A stretch of DNA of 64,000 nucleotides from the NCBI GenBank assembly GCA_029263125.1, contig JAJCYD010000035.1, positions 1 to 64,000 on the forward strand. The letters run 5' to 3'. Within the stretch, counting starts at the first letter, position 1. Every line of letters starts with the position of its first letter. Source of the DNA: Solirubrobacteraceae bacterium. Lineage in GTDB: Bacteria; Actinomycetota; Thermoleophilia; Solirubrobacterales; Solirubrobacteraceae. Positions 13,707 to 24,648 of this stretch are shown here, one piece after another. The translations under genes were made by a program, and so were the position numbers. Under the pieces are notes generated by a model. The model was not told the origin of the DNA. It searched no databases and was given only the letters and a program-made list of their open reading frames with translations.

Positions 13707-13820
13707 CGACCGCGGCGCCTCGCTGGAGTGGCGCCTGATTGGTGCTTCGCGTGGACAGCAAGCCAGCCGTTCGTCAAGAGGGGGCGGTCTCGGACGGCGA
13801 TCGCCGTCGCTGCGATCACC

Positions 13821-13926
13821 GGGTTGGGCGCCTTCTGCATGTCAGCCATTCAGAACGCGGCCAGCCGGCCCCGCATCACATCGAGCTGGGCGCTGTCTGC
13901 ATGTCTGTCATGCCAAACCCGCCCAG
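13821..13926. repeat. Short palindromic repeat, family B, copy 1
   Basis: This non-coding block begins GGGTTGGGCG and ends ATGCCAAACCCGCCC. Its ends are imperfect inverted repeats, and CTGCATGTC occurs twice inside it. The reverse complement of its right end matches both ends of the block at 37077-37175 (GGCGGGTTT-x-GCATG). About 106 bp long. Confidence 0.5.
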
Positions 13927-14037
13927 CCGCTCGGCCAGGTGTGAGAGCGCCGTCCTCGCGCGACGGGGCAGTCACGTCGGCGCTTCTGCAGGCTGCTCAT
14001 GGTGGTACGTCGCATCACCGGCAACAATCCTGGCGTG

Positions 14038-16315: not shown

Positions 16316-16372
16316 TTGCGGCGACCGTCGAGCAGCAGTCGCATCGCCCGCGTGCCACGGTCGCTCGGGCCC

Positions 16373-16485
16373 GTGCACAACTGACGTCTCGGTCGATGCC
16401 AGCCGGCGATCCGGCAGAAGTGCATCCAGGTGATGCAGAACTGCCGCATCGAGAATCAGGCGGTGTCGAGCCGTCACTTGTGCAC
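16373..16485 (-). repeat. 113-bp palindromic MITE/REP-like element, family A, copy 1
   Basis: Bounded by GTGCACAACTGAC and GTCACTTGTGCAC, which are inverted repeats differing at one position. The centre holds TGCATC-N5-GATGCA, so much of the element can fold into one long imperfect hairpin. Its reverse complement aligns without gaps to 20193-20305 over all 113 bases with 94 identities by my hand count. It lies between the DUF2254 gene and the NlpC/P60-like gene in a stretch without other genes. Confidence 0.85.
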
Positions 16486-16634
16486 GCGCGTGACCCGCCA
16501 GATGGACTACCGCATTTCCCGCAACGGTCTCAGTGCATCCTCCCCGTAGGTGCGGACCTCGTCAACGGTGGCGCCTCGGTCCTGACCGCTGCGATGCCCG
16601 CGCGGAGCGCCACGCCACGGCGCTCAGCGCTCGC

Positions 16635-17414
16635 TCACAGACCCGGCGGGTGGCGCACCTCATAGCGCTTTGCCGAGCGCTTCTTGGTCTGCCAGCGCGG
16701 ACCCTTGCCGCCCGTCCCCGACGTGTCCAGGCGCAGCCCGGCGATCACCACGTAGGCGTGGCCGCGATTGGCGTACGTCGTGATCCAGGCACCCTTCCCG
16801 GCCTCGCCGTAGCGCATGAAGCCGCCGGAGGCCAGCGGACTGTCGAGTAGGCCGCCGCCGTGCAGGGCGTAGGAGATGGTGCCCGAGCAGTCATAGGCCG
16901 AGTCTTCGAAGGAGGCGTTGTGACCGCCGCCGTAGCGGTAGGGCTTGGTGACGATCCTGTTGGCGGCGATGATCGCGTCGCGTACCTGGGGCGGCGCAGA
17001 GACCGGCACCAGGGCGATGACCCCGTCGGGCGCCAGCACGGCGTTCGGGGTGTTGGTGAATCCGAGGACCGGCGGGGGCGGCGCCGTGGCCGCGGCGGCG
17101 ATGCGCGCCTGGATGACGCGCTTGCGCAAGCCCCGCGCCTGCAGACGCGACACGCGCCCGTCGACGCGCATCTCGTTGTCGCGCTCGAAACGGCGCACCA
17201 TGCGCGTCGTCTTGCCCCCGTAGGCTCCGTCGACCTTGATCGGGTAGCCGACGACCTTCATCCAGCGCTGCAGCACGCGGACATGGCGGCCGTGGTCGCC
17301 CTCGCGCAGGGCGCGGTCGCCGAACTTGGCACTTGCTGGAACGGCGAACGCGCCGGCCGTGGTGGCCAGTGCGGCGATGACCACGCAGGCGCGCGGCAAG
17401 ACTCGGTAAAGCAA
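16635..17414 (-). CDS. Secreted peptidoglycan-binding / NlpC-P60-like cell-wall hydrolase
   Basis: 259 residues using the TTG at 17414, preceded by GAAAGGA; the frame stays open upstream but there it runs into the riboswitch, so a late start is required. The N-terminus is a signal peptide (ACVVIAALATTAGAFAVPASA). Next is a peptidoglycan-binding domain: LREGDHGRHVRVLQRWMKVVGYPIKVDGAYGGKT. The C-terminal part has RYGGGHNASFEDSAYDCSGTISYAL, where the Cys of Y-D-C-S-G is the NlpC/P60 nucleophile, and RGHAYVVIAG with the likely catalytic His. Expected to cut peptidoglycan outside the cell. Expression is probably controlled by the c-di-AMP riboswitch just upstream. Confidence 0.87.
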   Translation of the reverse strand: MLYRVLPRACVVIAALATTAGAFAVPASAKFGDRALREGDHGRHVRVLQRWMKVVGYPIKVDGAYGGKTTRMVRRFERDNEMRVDGRVSRLQARGLRKRVIQARIAAAATAPPPPVLGFTNTPNAVLAPDGVIALVPVSAPPQVRDAIIAANRIVTKPYRYGGGHNASFEDSAYDCSGTISYALHGGGLLDSPLASGGFMRYGEAGKGAWITTYANRGHAYVVIAGLRLDTSGTGGKGPRWQTKKRSAKRYEVRHPPGL

Positions 17415-17436
17415 CTCGAACGTCCTTTCGTATCCA

Positions 17437-17590
17437 CGTGCCTCCGAGGTAAGCTGACGGGCTCGCGCTGGAACGTGCGCTACGCCGGATAACCGGCGAT
17501 TCGCCCCGTGCGCCGCATGCGACGCGATTGGGTCCCCCGGCCGCCCCCGCATGGCGCGGGCGGTTAAGCAGTCTTCTCAGGACTCCAGAC
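17437..17590 (-). promoter_or_regulatory. c-di-AMP (ydaO/yuaA) riboswitch
   Basis: On the minus strand the conserved blocks of the ydaO-yuaA riboswitch appear in order: CTTAACC (17568-17562), GGGGGACCCAA (17538-17528), GGGGCGAATC (about 17507-17498), GAGCCCGTCAG then CTTACCTCGGAGGC (17464-17442). The 3' end falls about 25 bases before the start codon of the NlpC/P60-like hydrolase. In Actinobacteria this class typically controls cell-wall hydrolases and resuscitation-promoting factors, and c-di-AMP generally turns expression off. The exact 5' limit is approximate. Confidence 0.88.
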
Positions 17591-17690
17591 ACGCCACGGA
17601 CGACGGAGTTTCGGCGCCTCGGCGGGCTTTGGACCGGGGGCTCCCGGCGGGTGGTTCGCCGCGCGTCTGCAGGGGGTATGCAGGCGTTGC

Positions 17691-18704
17691 ATGATCGCGC
17701 TTCCCAGCCCGCGTGGTGAGATCTCCGAGCACCTGCTGTGCGCCCTCACGCAGCCGGTTCATGCGCTGCTCGCGGCTCATGCGAGCTCCCCGCCGGACCC
17801 CCTCAGCGACGAGGATCTGCATCTCGCGCTGTACCTCTGCTACGAGCTGCACTACCGCGGCCTGCCCGGGGTCGCTGACGAGTGGGAATGGGAGCCCAGC
17901 CTGCTGGCGCTGCGCCGTCAGCTGGAGGCGTGCTTTGAGAGCGCGCTGCACGCCGGCGTGCCGCGACCGGCGCTGCCGGCATCCCCAGAGGAGATGGATC
18001 TCGCGCTGCGCGCCGTCGGCGAGGCGGACGACTCACCGTCGCTGTCGCGGCACCTCGAGCGCCAGGCGACGCTGGAGCACGTGCTCGAGTTCGTCGCGCA
18101 TCGGTCCGCCTACCAGCTCAAGGAGGCCGACCCGCACTCGTGGGCGCTGCCGCGGCTTCATGGCCCGCCGAAAGCCGCGCTCGTGCAGATTCAGGCCGAC
18201 GAGTACGGCAACGGCGTCGCAGACCGCATGCACGCCAGCCTCTTCGCCGACACGATGCGCGCACTCGGTCTCGATGCGCGCTACGGCACGTACGTCGATC
18301 GTCTGCCGGGCGCGACGCTGGCGACCGTGAACCTCATGTCGCTGTTCGGCCTGCATCGCCGCTGGCGCGGCGCGATCGTCGGCCATCTCGCGCTCTTCGA
18401 GACGCAGTCGGCGGTCCCCAATCGCCGCTACGCGAACGCGCTTAGGCGCCTCGGATACGACGAACGGGCGACCGCGTTCTTCGACGAGCACGTCATGGCC
18501 GATGCGATTCACGAGTCGATCGCCACCGTCGATCTCGCAGGCGGGCTCGCGCGACAACAACCCGAGCTGACGCGCGACATCCTGTTCGGCGCCGCGGCGC
18601 TCGTCGAGCTCAACGGCCGTCTGGCCCGGCACATCCTCACAGCGTGGGAGCGCGGGGCGACATCGCTGCGCGCGGCGCTGCCCGCGCAGCCGGCCGCGGC
18701 CTGA
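17691..18704 (+). CDS. Iron-containing redox enzyme family (haem-oxygenase-like di-iron) protein
   Basis: 337 residues. The protein is all-helical with the spacing of the haem-oxygenase-like di-iron oxidase family: LALYLCYELHYRGLPGVADEWEWEP, then LVQIQADEYGNG and HVMADAIHESIATVDLAGG, which provide Glu/His candidates for metal binding. Enzymes with this fold include fatty-acid decarboxylases and N-oxygenases; the substrate here is unknown. It ends 9 bases from the end of a convergent CDGSH iron-sulfur protein gene. In other actinobacteria the two families are frequent neighbours or fusions, which supports a redox-partner relationship. Confidence 0.82.
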   Translation: MIALPSPRGEISEHLLCALTQPVHALLAAHASSPPDPLSDEDLHLALYLCYELHYRGLPGVADEWEWEPSLLALRRQLEACFESALHAGVPRPALPASPEEMDLALRAVGEADDSPSLSRHLERQATLEHVLEFVAHRSAYQLKEADPHSWALPRLHGPPKAALVQIQADEYGNGVADRMHASLFADTMRALGLDARYGTYVDRLPGATLATVNLMSLFGLHRRWRGAIVGHLALFETQSAVPNRRYANALRRLGYDERATAFFDEHVMADAIHESIATVDLAGGLARQQPELTRDILFGAAALVELNGRLARHILTAWERGATSLRAALPAQPAAA

Positions 18705-18713
18705 ACGCCGGCG

Positions 18714-18932
18714 TCAGCCGGCTCTCCCGGACTCCGCGGTGCTCGGGGCGCGGAAGCGCACGAGCGCATGCGTTCCGTCGCAGAACGGTCGCATTCTCGA
18801 CTTGCCGCAGCGGCACAGCGCGATCGTCTCGCGTTGGGTCTCGATGCGCCGGCCGTCCTGATCCTCGAGGCGAAAGGGCCCGCGAACGATCAGCGGCCCG
18901 TCGCGGTATGCCGTGATCCGGGCCTCGTCCAT
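18714..18932 (-). CDS. CDGSH iron-sulfur domain protein
   Basis: 72 residues. It contains CRCGKSRMRPFCDGTH, a full CDGSH signature (C-x-C-x2-(S/T)-x3-P-x-C-D-G-(S/T)-x-H), whose three Cys and one His bind a [2Fe-2S] cluster. The N-terminal half (GPLIVRGPFRLEDQDG) is the usual small beta region. No membrane anchor. It is convergent with the di-iron oxidase-like gene, 9 bases apart, and probably supplies electrons or iron to it. Confidence 0.9.
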   Translation of the reverse strand: MDEARITAYRDGPLIVRGPFRLEDQDGRRIETQRETIALCRCGKSRMRPFCDGTHALVRFRAPSTAESGRAG

Positions 18933-18984
18933 GAATGGTGGTCATGCCCTGCCAGCGACCATGACATGCGGCCCCGCGCGGGTT

Positions 18985-19326
18985 TCAGCGGGACCGCGGG
19001 CATCTGCTCGCACGGCCAGAACGCGGTCGTGCGCGCGCAGGGTCCGCGCGTGGACCGCGCGTCGGGGACCGCTCCTCGCGGGCGCGGGCTCGATCCTCGC
19101 TGTAGCCGACACCCAAGAACACGAAGCTGATCGCGAGCGTGCCGCCGACCGCCACGACGCCCCACCCGACGATCGCCGCCGTCCCGCCCGTCGTCGCCGC
19201 CAGGACGATGCCGGCAGCGACGATCACGAGCACGACCGCCGCGCGCGGGAGGGCGAACGCACGCCACCCGGCGCCACCGTCCGGCGCTTCGGACGCGGGC
19301 GCAACCGGGGTGCGACGCCCGTTCAT
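18985..19326 (-). CDS. Small membrane protein
   Basis: 113 residues from the ATG at 19326 (MNGRRTPVAP); the open frame extends upstream, but that part is Arg repeats. Two hydrophobic helices: AAVVLVIVAAGIVLAATTG and GWGVVAVGGTLAISFVFLGVG, followed by YSEDRARARE. The loop S-E-D-R-x-R-A-R-E after the second helix is typical of a family of anonymous actinobacterial membrane proteins. The basic tail after residue 75 may be read-through of a decayed end. Confidence 0.6.
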   Translation of the reverse strand: MNGRRTPVAPASEAPDGGAGWRAFALPRAAVVLVIVAAGIVLAATTGGTAAIVGWGVVAVGGTLAISFVFLGVGYSEDRARAREERSPTRGPRADPARARPRSGRASRCPRSR

Positions 19327-19767
19327 GCCGGCAGTCCCTCGGCGATGCCTCCGACGACGACGAACATCGCCCGACTGTTCTGAATGCTCATCAGTGACCG
19401 GATACCCGCGCATCCCCGCAATTTCACGGACCAGCGCCTGATCGATGTTGCGGGCCTACTCGGCTGGGTACCCGACGATGTGTCGCGGGCGGGCCTTCGA
19501 ACCGTGCGCGGCTCCGACCCTGGGCCTCCACCGCCGCCCGAACCCGCCCCCGGGCCGATCTGACGGCCAGCGTGTCCGGGCACGGGAAGCCGGGACGCTG
19601 ACGCGCCCGCCGCGAGGTTCGAGGACATCTGCGGGCGGTCATCGGCGTGAGCCCGCATTCCCGCCCACGGCTGGAATCTCGCGTCGTGCTCGCGTGCGAG
19701 CAGGCATGCGTGACAGGACCACGGGGTACACGCGCGCAGGCACATCGATCCGAGAATGGAGCTCACC
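19327..19767. other. 441-bp region with a possible gene remnant
   Basis: On the minus strand at about 19450-19380 the text DQALVREIAGMRGYPVTDEH resembles a block of a common anonymous actinobacterial protein (R-G-Y-P-V-x-D), but the frame then runs into Arg repeats. The rest shows no motif on either strand. I call it a remnant at best. Confidence 0.35.
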
Positions 19768-20031
19768 ATGCCCACTGCCAAGCCCGGTCCCAGCGTCAAG
19801 GACGACGAGCTCTACGAGAAGCTGCGAGACGAGGGGGAGAGCAAGGAGAAGTCCGCGCGCATCGCCAACGCCCGTGCGCGCGGATCACAACCCAGCCGAA
19901 AGGGCGGCAAGGCCAGTAGCTACGAGGAGCGCACGGTACGTCAGCTCCGTCAGCGCGCGGCCGAGATCGGAATCGACGGCCGATCGAAGATGGACAAGAA
20001 GGAGCTGATCGACGCCCTGCGCAACCACTGA
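19768..20031 (+). CDS. DUF7218-type small basic protein with Rho-N/SAP-like C-terminus
   Basis: 87 residues from the ATG at 19768, preceded by GGAG at a suitable distance; the ATG at 19756 is in frame but lies upstream of that site. The first half reads KDDELYEKLRDEGESKEKSARIANA, a conserved charged helix pair seen in DUF7218-like proteins. The second half, TVRQLRQRAAEIGIDGRSKMDKKELIDALR, has the pattern of the Rho N-terminal/SAP nucleic-acid-binding helix-extended-helix. Probably a small DNA- or RNA-associated, stress-related protein. Confidence 0.78.
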   Translation: MPTAKPGPSVKDDELYEKLRDEGESKEKSARIANARARGSQPSRKGGKASSYEERTVRQLRQRAAEIGIDGRSKMDKKELIDALRNH

Positions 20032-20192
20032 CCAAGCGTTACCGGGCCCGGGAGGCGGTTACCGGCGCCGAACCGGCGCGCGCCGCCAGCGCTTGGGCGC
20101 TGCGGTTCGCAGCATCGTCGCATCGAGCGCTCGACCCGGTGGACGCTGTCGTGCAGCGGGTTATCGCGAGCGACCGATCGCGCGAGCCACCC

Positions 20193-20305
20193 GTGCACAA
20201 GTGACGGCTGGACACCGCTCATTTCTCGATCCGGCGGTTATGCATCACCTGGATGCACAAGTGCCGGATCGGCTGCGGGCGCCGATCGAGGCGGCAGTTG
20301 TGCAC
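20193..20305 (+). repeat. 113-bp palindromic MITE/REP-like element, family A, copy 2
   Basis: Runs from GTGCACAAGTGAC to GGCAGTTGTGCAC. It is inverted relative to the copy at 16373-16485 and 83% identical to it by hand count (94 of 113). The centre, TGCATCACCTGGATGCA, is identical in both copies, as are the 17 bases at the left end. The right end abuts the truncated 3' part of a DUF1360 gene. Confidence 0.85.
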
Positions 20306-20713
20306 CTGGGTCCGGCGCCAACCGCGACCGCTGCGCGAAGAAGAACACGGCTGTGGCGATGGCCGACGCACCGCAGCGCCTGCGGATCGACACATGGCTG
20401 TGGGCCGCGGCCTCGTCCACCTCGCCGGGTCCGGCGTCGCCCTCGAGCTGGTGAAGGGGGCGCGCACCGCGCTGGTGACCCTGTCCTTGGCGATGAGGCG
20501 CGAGACCTTGTGCGTCGCGATCGTCGTCAGCGCGAGGTCCGAGGCCGAGACGGACGCCGGCAGCTCGCGATCGGAGCGGCGCAGCCAGGTCGAGAACGCG
20601 CCGAACAGACCGAGGAACGTCGTCGTCAGCGCCAGGTAGCCCTGCAGCGGGCGTTCCTGGTCGGGGGAGTGTCCGGCGAATGGTGCTGCGTGCTGCAGTG
20701 GTCGATCGAGCAT
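20306..20713 (-). pseudogene. DUF1360 family membrane protein, frameshifted and truncated
   Basis: From the ATG at 20713 the frame gives LQGYLALTTTFLGLFGAFSTW (membrane helix) and SASDLALTTIATHKVSRLIA, then KDRVTSAVRAPFT, the DUF1360 signature. After this (about 20450) the family text continues only in another frame, as LEGDAGPGEVDEA, which is consistent with loss of one base. The expected C-P-x-C block is missing, and the remaining helix (ASAIATAVFFFAQRSRLAP) stops where the palindromic element begins at 20305. I regard the gene as inactivated. Confidence 0.75.
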
Positions 20714-23449: not shown

Positions 23450-23770
23450 ATGGGCTTTGACCAGTACCACGAGCCGCCGGAGGAGATGAGCGCCGAGGCG
23501 CGCACGTTCGCTCGCATGATCGCGTCGCTGACCGAGGAGGCCGAGGCGATCGGCTGGTACCACCAGCGGATCTCCCTGGAAGCCGACGACGAAGCGCGCG
23601 CGATCATGCAGAACGCCGAGCAGGAGGAGTACAAGCACTTCGCGATGGACCTCGAGTTCCTCCTGCGGCGCACGCCGAAGTGGCGCGCGGCGATGCAGGA
23701 GGTGCTGTTCACCGAGGGCGACATCGTCGAGGCGGGCGAGGAGGCCGAGGAGGCCGCCGAGGACGCCTGA
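23450..23770 (+). CDS. Encapsulated-ferritin-like (EncFtn family) protein
   Basis: 106 residues with a good ribosome-binding site (GAGGAG) before the ATG at 23450. The layout matches EncFtn proteins: HEPPEEMSAEARTF, then TEEAEAIGWYHQR and NAEQEEYKHFAMDLEFLLRR, and FTEGDI after the second helix. The ferroxidase residues of the family, two Glu and one His, align here as Glu32, Glu60 and His63. Such proteins oxidise and deliver iron inside encapsulin nanocompartments. The C-terminus is a run of Glu/Ala with no recognisable encapsulin-loading peptide, and no encapsulin shell gene is in the window. Ends at a strong hairpin. Confidence 0.82.
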   Translation: MGFDQYHEPPEEMSAEARTFARMIASLTEEAEAIGWYHQRISLEADDEARAIMQNAEQEEYKHFAMDLEFLLRRTPKWRAAMQEVLFTEGDIVEAGEEAEEAAEDA

Positions 23771-23775
23771 TCCTC

Positions 23776-23820
23776 GCGCGCCGCCGGGCGGGGCGAGAAC
23801 CGCCCCGTCTCGCGGCGCGC
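23776..23820 (+). terminator. Nested hairpin after the EncFtn-like gene
   Basis: GCGCGCCGC (23776-23784) pairs with GCGGCGCGC (23812-23820), and inside it CGGGGCG (23789-23795) pairs with CGCCCCG (23801-23807) around an AGAAC loop. No T-tract follows, but it begins 5 bases after the stop codon. Confidence 0.65.
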
Positions 23821-24036
23821 GTGGCGGTGACCCGGGCGACGACCTGCGACGACCTGCTCGCACGGGGACGTCGACTTCAAGTCGCGGTCGCGCTCGTCGG
23901 CGCCCTGCTGCTGACACTGCTGGTCACGAGCGGCCGGGCCCTCAGCTGTTTGAGATCATCTCCTACGTCATCTTCGACCTCGATCCTGGCGCACCGGCTC
24001 ACCGATACGCTCGGCGCGCGCTGGGTGGAGCGCAAG

Positions 24037-24648
24037 CTAGGAGCGCGAGAGGTCGGCGAGCTCGCGGCGGCTGCTGACACCGAGCTTGCGAAAGACGCTG
24101 CGCGCGTGGGTGCGCACGGTCTCGACGCTGATCGACAGCGCGACGGCGATCTCGCCGTTGGAGCGCCCCAGCCGCAGGAGACCCAACACGTCGGCCTCGC
24201 GCGCGGTGAGCATGTCGTGACCGCCGGTCGCGCCCTGGCCGCGCGGCAGCACGTGCAGCCCGCGTGACGCGAGGTGGATCGTGTTCAGGACATCGCGGCG
24301 CTCCACGTCGCGGCCAAGGCAGGCAGTAGCCCCGAGCGCCAAGAGCTGGCTGCATTCGCCGGGCGTCGGGTCGGCGGTGAGGACGACGAGCTGGGTCGCC
24401 GGATGAGCGCCGTGCAGGTGGCGGATGTCGCCGGCGGTCAGCAGCGCCGCCAGGTTCAAGATCGCGACGCGAGGCCGGTGCTCGGCGATGACCGCATCGA
24501 GGCGGTCGGCGGAGACGTCGGTGGCCACGATCTGGAGGCTGGGATCGGCCCCGATCAGGCTGCGCAACCCGGCGTCGACCAGATCCTCGAAGCGCGCCAA
24601 GAGGATCGTGACCGGGGTGCGGGGATCCATCAGGGTGCTTATCGGCAT
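24037..24648 (-). CDS. LuxR/NarL-type response regulator with degenerate receiver
   Basis: 203 residues from the ATG at 24648; an in-frame GTG at 24678 and an ATG at 24630 are alternatives. The receiver domain (about residues 8-125) has the right fold pattern (TILLARFEDLVDAGLRSLI, QLVVLTADP), but the phospho-acceptor strand reads RVAILNLAALL, so the usual Asp is Asn. It may not be phosphorylated in the standard way. The C-terminus is a complete LuxR helix-turn-helix: LTAREADVLGLLRLGRSNGE, then ISVETVRTHARSVFRKLGV. There is no histidine kinase nearby. Target genes unknown. Confidence 0.85.
   Translation of the reverse strand: MPISTLMDPRTPVTILLARFEDLVDAGLRSLIGADPSLQIVATDVSADRLDAVIAEHRPRVAILNLAALLTAGDIRHLHGAHPATQLVVLTADPTPGECSQLLALGATACLGRDVERRDVLNTIHLASRGLHVLPRGQGATGGHDMLTAREADVLGLLRLGRSNGEIAVALSISVETVRTHARSVFRKLGVSSRRELADLSRS

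Follow-up and report, generated by a model that had tools for sequence, protein, structure and literature searches.

Dispersed four-arm inverted-repeat arrays in a Solirubrobacteraceae genome are probable AbiEi-type operators with a likely nuclease-like fusion partner

Results

Two inverted copies of a four-arm array lie in the window

The window, the whole 64,000-nucleotide stretch that was analysed (positions 1 to 64,000 of contig JAJCYD010000035.1, assembly GCA_029263125.1; genome G000), holds a pair of inverted repeats that the initial annotation had described as two 113-bp copies with 94 identities counted by hand. When the alignment was recomputed, 95 of 114 bases were identical, with no gaps, between positions 16373-16486 and 20192-20305 read as its reverse complement, and both copies contained the reported GTGCACAA ends and the central TGCATC-N5-GATGCA. 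The pair is the best-scoring inverted repeat of the whole window, and chance is ruled out because the runner-up is far weaker (49 bp, 76%) and the repeat recurs across the genome (next-best copy E 7.5e-38). A structure overlooked at first is that each copy consists of two tandem 51-bp inverted-repeat units, so that the unit, hereafter family A, is 111 bp long and has four arms of alternating orientation (13-25-13, a 9-bp linker, 13-25-13). Copy 1 is on the plus strand at 16374-16484, with arms at 16374-16386 (+), 16412-16424 (-), 16434-16446 (+) and 16472-16484 (-) and its linker at 16425-16433; copy 2 is inverted, on the minus strand at 20194-20304, with arms at 20194-20206, 20232-20244, 20254-20266 and 20292-20304. 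Both are solo arrays without a gene.

The surroundings of the two copies differ. Copy 1 is enclosed in an extended unit (16340-16522, plus strand) that is shared, at about 180-200 bp, by a family A subfamily (L002, L003, L005, L006 and L015/L016). Copy 2 lies in a segment (20179-20410, plus strand) duplicated from contig C52, and this segment takes in the opening ~18 codons of an S4-domain gene, of which C52 has the full version; array copy 2 was therefore copied along with a one-sided flank of ~100 bp. Between the two arrays is a c-di-AMP riboswitch (RF00379, 67.5 bits; 17425-17580, minus strand), the sole Rfam match in the window, which is upstream of a peptidoglycan-binding-domain gene (16635-17384).

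Distribution of family A

A genome search with the repeat returned many more copies with the same ends, as expected of the dispersed, palindromic intergenic family that had been suspected initially; the outcome that would have refuted it, an absence of other copies or copies with unlike ends, did not occur. With a sequence profile made from 21 copies, family A was found in G000 as 21 intact arrays, one array split by an insertion sequence and one truncated array. About 22 of these copies are gene-less and scattered through the genome, and those examined are, by simple codon-usage gene calls, intergenic or at gene edges. The split array (L015/L016, at the starts of contigs C2 and C23) has been broken by an insertion of the Mutator/IS256 type, which shows a duplication of 8 bp (TGCACAAC), and the two contigs overlap there by 141 bp.

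An architecture-only pattern of 20 fixed bases, with at most one mismatch allowed, was searched in 399 Thermoleophilia genomes and matched four of the five sampled genomes of the genus (20 matches in G000, eight in G002, four in G006 with one overlapping, two in G001 and none in G004). Outside the genus, this search gave only two isolated one-mismatch matches, in G305 and G382, which are considered chance level because reversed-pattern controls likewise yield single matches. Profile searching located three arrays and one partial array in G003; no arrays were found in G004 or in G005, which is 77% complete and absent from the architecture-pattern sample. G002 is placed in Solirubrobacteraceae by its named records. 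Searches with the exact arm sequence matched only the genus and one unrelated Clostridia sequence with the wrong spacing (44 bp versus 51), and the array pattern was not found in IMG/VR, on which ground a viral origin was rejected.

Array geometry is near-invariant in five species of the genus, and an indel is present in only one of 22 aligned copies from two species. The loops and flanks vary freely, and all four arms are conserved at constant positions; they reach 13-18 bp, with an ~18-bp consensus of TGCACAASTGMCGNNTCG in G000 and G002. The sequence of the arms depends on the species: the consensus is TGCACAACTGCCG in G000, G002 and G003, TGAAGGAGCGACG in G006 and TGCAGTGATGACG in G001, and arm identity is 0.75-0.87 within species versus 0.60-0.65 across species for G006 and G001. 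On contig C313 of G002, a second array with G006-type arms (TGAACGAGCGACG; L120, 8490-8600) stands beside a G002-type array. The only clearly orthologous dispersed copy seen is an array downstream of a pspA-linked operon common to G000, G003 and G002 (L010, L116 and L119), which indicates that some copies are old and vertically inherited.

One array per species abuts the start codon of an AbiEi-nuclease-like fusion gene

In each of G000, G001, G002, G003 and G006, one array runs up to the opening codons of a gene for a ~300-aa protein that is orthologous in all five, and in G002 the ATG itself falls within the last arm. Inverted repeats thus lie directly upstream of an AbiEi-family gene, as in autoregulatory AbiEi operators, at five orthologous loci. 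The five genes form one clade (support 100/100), and the dispersed arrays of each species resemble the home array of that species. G004 and G005, which lack arrays, have only paralogues (37-38% identity) and no close orthologue; this co-occurrence of gene and array was counted in favour of operator identity. In G002, G003 and G006 its position is between asd and a LuxR-type regulator region, whereas G000 and G001 carry it at other places. The LuxR-type regulator gene of the window (24037-24648; region 23770-24037) has close relatives near the AbiEi-nuclease gene of G002, G003 and G006 (L113, L117 and L118); in the window it adjoins neither an AbiEi-nuclease gene nor asd.

The reading frame is intact in G002 and G006, is frameshifted once in G000 (near codon 30) and in G003 (near codon 59), and has several lesions in G001. 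Some of these could be assembly errors rather than decay; as they stand, they mean that the protein may now be inactive where copies are most numerous. No DUF1814-type toxin was recognised among the scanned neighbours, which encode the LuxR-type regulator, a Fea1-like protein, Asd, a MobA-like protein and one protein with no match, and tblastn found no AbiEi-DUF559 gene relics beside the dispersed copies at the loci examined.

The cognate protein matches Pfam AbiEi_4 (PF13338, E 9.8e-9) and DUF559, as well as AbiEi in PADLOC (E 1.4e-24). In an AlphaFold2 model (mean pLDDT 93.5), residues 1-192 match AbiEi 6y8q (Z 12.3) and Rv2827c 1zel (Z 9.7), with the AbiEi winged helix-turn-helix followed by the C-terminal antitoxin fold, while residues 196-295 match the catalytic domain of the homing endonuclease I-Bth0305I 3r3p (Z 13.2) and Vsr 1cw0 (Z 10.4). 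Furthermore, the catalytic-type residues E199, D226, E237, D239 and H244 are invariant in 26 paralogues, and the Vsr-like fold with conserved E, D and H is that of the EDxHD homing endonuclease family. By its model, the protein is an N-terminal AbiEi winged-helix/antitoxin-like region (1-192) joined to a C-terminal EDxHD/Vsr-fold nuclease-like domain (196-295). It shares with I-Bth0305I and Vsr the fold and the invariant E/D/ExD/H residues of the C-terminal domain; unlike I-Bth0305I, it is not intron-borne, is fused to an AbiEi-type DNA-binding module and is nuclease-like by fold. This AbiEi-EDxHD fusion, with an array at its own start codon, is the likely trans partner of the repeat.

Family A fails tests for MITEs and RAYT-linked REPs and shows no hairpin covariation

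The initial annotation had suggested a MITE or a REP-type palindrome mobilised in trans, and neither class passed the tests applied here. Family A is short, non-coding, multi-copy and intergenic with terminal inverted repeats, as a classical MITE would be if a DDE transposase recognised its GTGCACAACTG ends and moved it; however, no target-site duplication was detected at the 111-bp boundary (mean longest flank repeat 3.45 versus 3.51 when permuted), and the end arm recurs internally at fixed spacing. A census of the arm 13-mer showed it to be almost confined to the 111-bp arrays, so that no autonomous transposon bounded by such ends can be seen. The MITE reading was rejected on the missing duplication and the unshared ends, and is considered very unlikely. 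No clean empty site was found in sister species, where none is informative because orthologues of the window-flanking genes sit in other neighbourhoods.

The other class comprises REP/REPIN-type elements or RNA hairpins (terminators or mRNA stabilisers), which act as a folded single strand. The arrays are palindromic and are computed to fold into strong hairpins (about -58 to -61 kcal/mol), copies are often between convergent or tandem genes, and 87.5% of cells pair under the hairpin model. However, covariation does not exceed that of shuffles under either the long-hairpin or the two-hairpin model, changes at the variable arm positions are not coupled between bases that could pair, and no Rfam family matches at the repeat; the hairpin RNA/DNA model was disfavoured on the lack of covariation and of an Rfam family. 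Arms conserved in place without covariation favour a protein that recognises every arm in its double-stranded form. A RAYT-linked REP was rejected in turn, as the Y1_Tnp/RAYT domain PF01797 is absent from the seven genomes of the genus (G000-G006), whereas five of 14 control genomes were positive. The position of the array, where a gene for a DNA-binding protein starts, also counts against a folded single strand, and this class, like the MITE, is considered very unlikely.

Family A resembles the operators of AbiEi proteins

Known AbiEi operators offer a closer match. Rv2827c, the AbiEi-family antitoxin of Mycobacterium tuberculosis (Beck et al. 2020), is reported in PMC7319586 to bind four 23-bp inverted repeats, which form two tandem pairs between -1 and -131 relative to its own start codon, with 13 bp between the repeats of a pair and 4 bp between pairs. 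From these spacings the period of the Rv2827c operator is 63 bp, compared with 60 bp for the family A array, and both have two tandem inverted pairs, four sites in all, that abut the start codon of an AbiEi-family gene. In the same text, the Rv2827c operator is a single promoter before a toxin-antitoxin operon, whereas family A is dispersed in ~22 copies; and, unlike Rv2827c as described there, the cognate protein has a nuclease-like domain and no paired toxin gene was recognised among its scanned neighbours. The AbiEi of Streptococcus agalactiae, according to PMC7319586, bends DNA and has two 23-bp inverted repeats as its binding sites. Its abiE operator shares with family A the AbiEi winged helix-turn-helix fold of the binding protein (6y8q, Z 12.3) and inverted-repeat recognition at a promoter; it has two sites at 3-bp spacing and that text mentions no dispersal, compared with four sites in family A.

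The strongest argument for an AbiEi-type operator is this threefold match of protein fold, position and geometry to the Rv2827c system. Operator identity of the array is accordingly well supported and highly probable, and the fuller description of family A as an AbiEi-type operator array that is also dispersed is probable. By analogy with Rv2827c, one AbiEi-type monomer would occupy each arm, bound as double-stranded DNA, at the home array that abuts the start codon of the AbiEi-EDxHD gene, and would repress that gene; the same protein would also bind the dispersed arrays.

An alternative is that the dispersed arrays are genuine regulon operators or decoy sites, which selection keeps near genes for multi-locus control or titration with no dedicated mobility. 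The conserved arms and free loops fit this, as do copies that precede a gene by ~50-120 bp (L004, L008, L011, L012, L022 and L122), three G002 copies between divergent genes and the pspA-linked copy kept in three species. However, by the simple codon-usage gene caller used to position genes relative to copies, no G000 copy is between divergent genes and about eight are between convergent genes, including the pspA copy, and the remaining G000 and G002 copies adjoin different genes. A regulon or set of decoys is thus thought unlikely.

Unrelated arrays occur with AbiEi-DUF559 paralogues, and a second family is dispersed in G000

AbiEi-DUF559 paralogues in other genera were also found with start-codon arrays of unrelated arm sequence and a 60-61-bp period (L131, L135, L143 and L148). 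Each of these four arrays outscores all 100 of its dinucleotide shuffles; ~25 paralogues were tested, and most beyond these four show no array. The array at L143, in G008 of another genus, has a second full-length, gene-less copy elsewhere (78% over 118 bp, E 1.2e-14).

Family B is a second dispersed repeat of G000, with about 15 copies (window 13779-13969 and L176-L183) and four 18-bp arms at a period of 62. Its window copy is at 13824-13926 on the plus strand, with arms at 13824-13841, 13847-13864, 13886-13903 and 13909-13926. The plus-to-minus offset of 23 bp is that of the arrays before the AbiEi-DUF559 genes at G000 C52:82086 and on G002 C173, and the best arms at these two loci share 15 of 18 positions with family B, a score reached by none of about 383,000 background positions. 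Family B sometimes adjoins family A arrays (L002, L009 and L016).

Discussion

How the arrays came to be dispersed is a separate question from what they are. The nuclease-like domain of the cognate protein may start break-and-copy events that place bare arrays at new sites, in parallel with the supposed role of RAYTs for REPs. That the cognate protein spreads the arrays is proposed tentatively, and more tentatively still, AbiEi-EDxHD fusions may constitute a new, non-RAYT class of repeat mobilisers, each of which would recognise its own four-arm operator array, cut DNA with its homing-endonuclease-like domain and so copy the bare array to new intergenic sites.

A serious rival, although a somewhat unlikely one, is passive spread by ectopic recombination or duplication of repeat-rich intergenic sequence, with no part for a cognate protein. 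Variable one-sided flanks travel with the arrays, and the flank duplicated in the window could equally be produced by ordinary recombination; the lack of target-site duplication and the frameshift of the cognate gene in G000 point the same way. On the other hand, dispersal is seen for two unlike array families in G000 and also for a third, in another genus, with the genes not found beside the dispersed copies, and chance duplication is not expected to pick out AbiEi-type arrays.

REP/REPIN elements and their RAYTs (PMC3116915, PMC3733652) are likewise small, intergenic, multi-copy palindromes of species-specific sequence, with a repeat-flanked cognate gene and gene-less copies; family A differs in that the genus has no RAYT, the candidate partner is the AbiEi-EDxHD protein, four arms stand at fixed spacing, and what is recognised appears, from the pattern of conservation, to be the arms as double strands and not a hairpin. 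Family A has the look of a REP-like system whose protein family is an unexpected one. ERIC-type repeats, which are imperfect intergenic palindromes of about 110-130 bp found in related species, are similar to family A in size and type; we know of no AbiEi link or four-arm tandem geometry for them.

Small interspersed palindromes are common in bacteria, and few besides RAYT-linked REPs have a named partner protein. The repeat studied here is traceable to the AbiEi_4 plus DUF559 gene family, which often has several paralogues per sampled genome and no assigned function, and the open-access literature yielded no paper that joins DUF559 or AbiEi-nuclease fusions to dispersed repeats. DUF559 fusions thereby gain a testable putative role at four-arm arrays, in binding and perhaps in cutting, and a connection emerges between toxin-antitoxin operators, interspersed repeats and nucleases of the homing type. 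If the proposal is true, AbiEi-EDxHD mobilisers would generate species-specific interspersed repeats in Actinobacteria. Because the behaviour is common to three or more arrays of unlike sequence, the link is predictive: the sequence upstream of such a gene can be read, and its dispersed copies then found. Before several AbiEi-DUF559 paralogues (L145, L184, L185 and L186) there is also a conserved GGGGGGCGAACTTCG-like motif, located in the array linker where an array is seen, which is possibly a promoter or ribosome-binding element.
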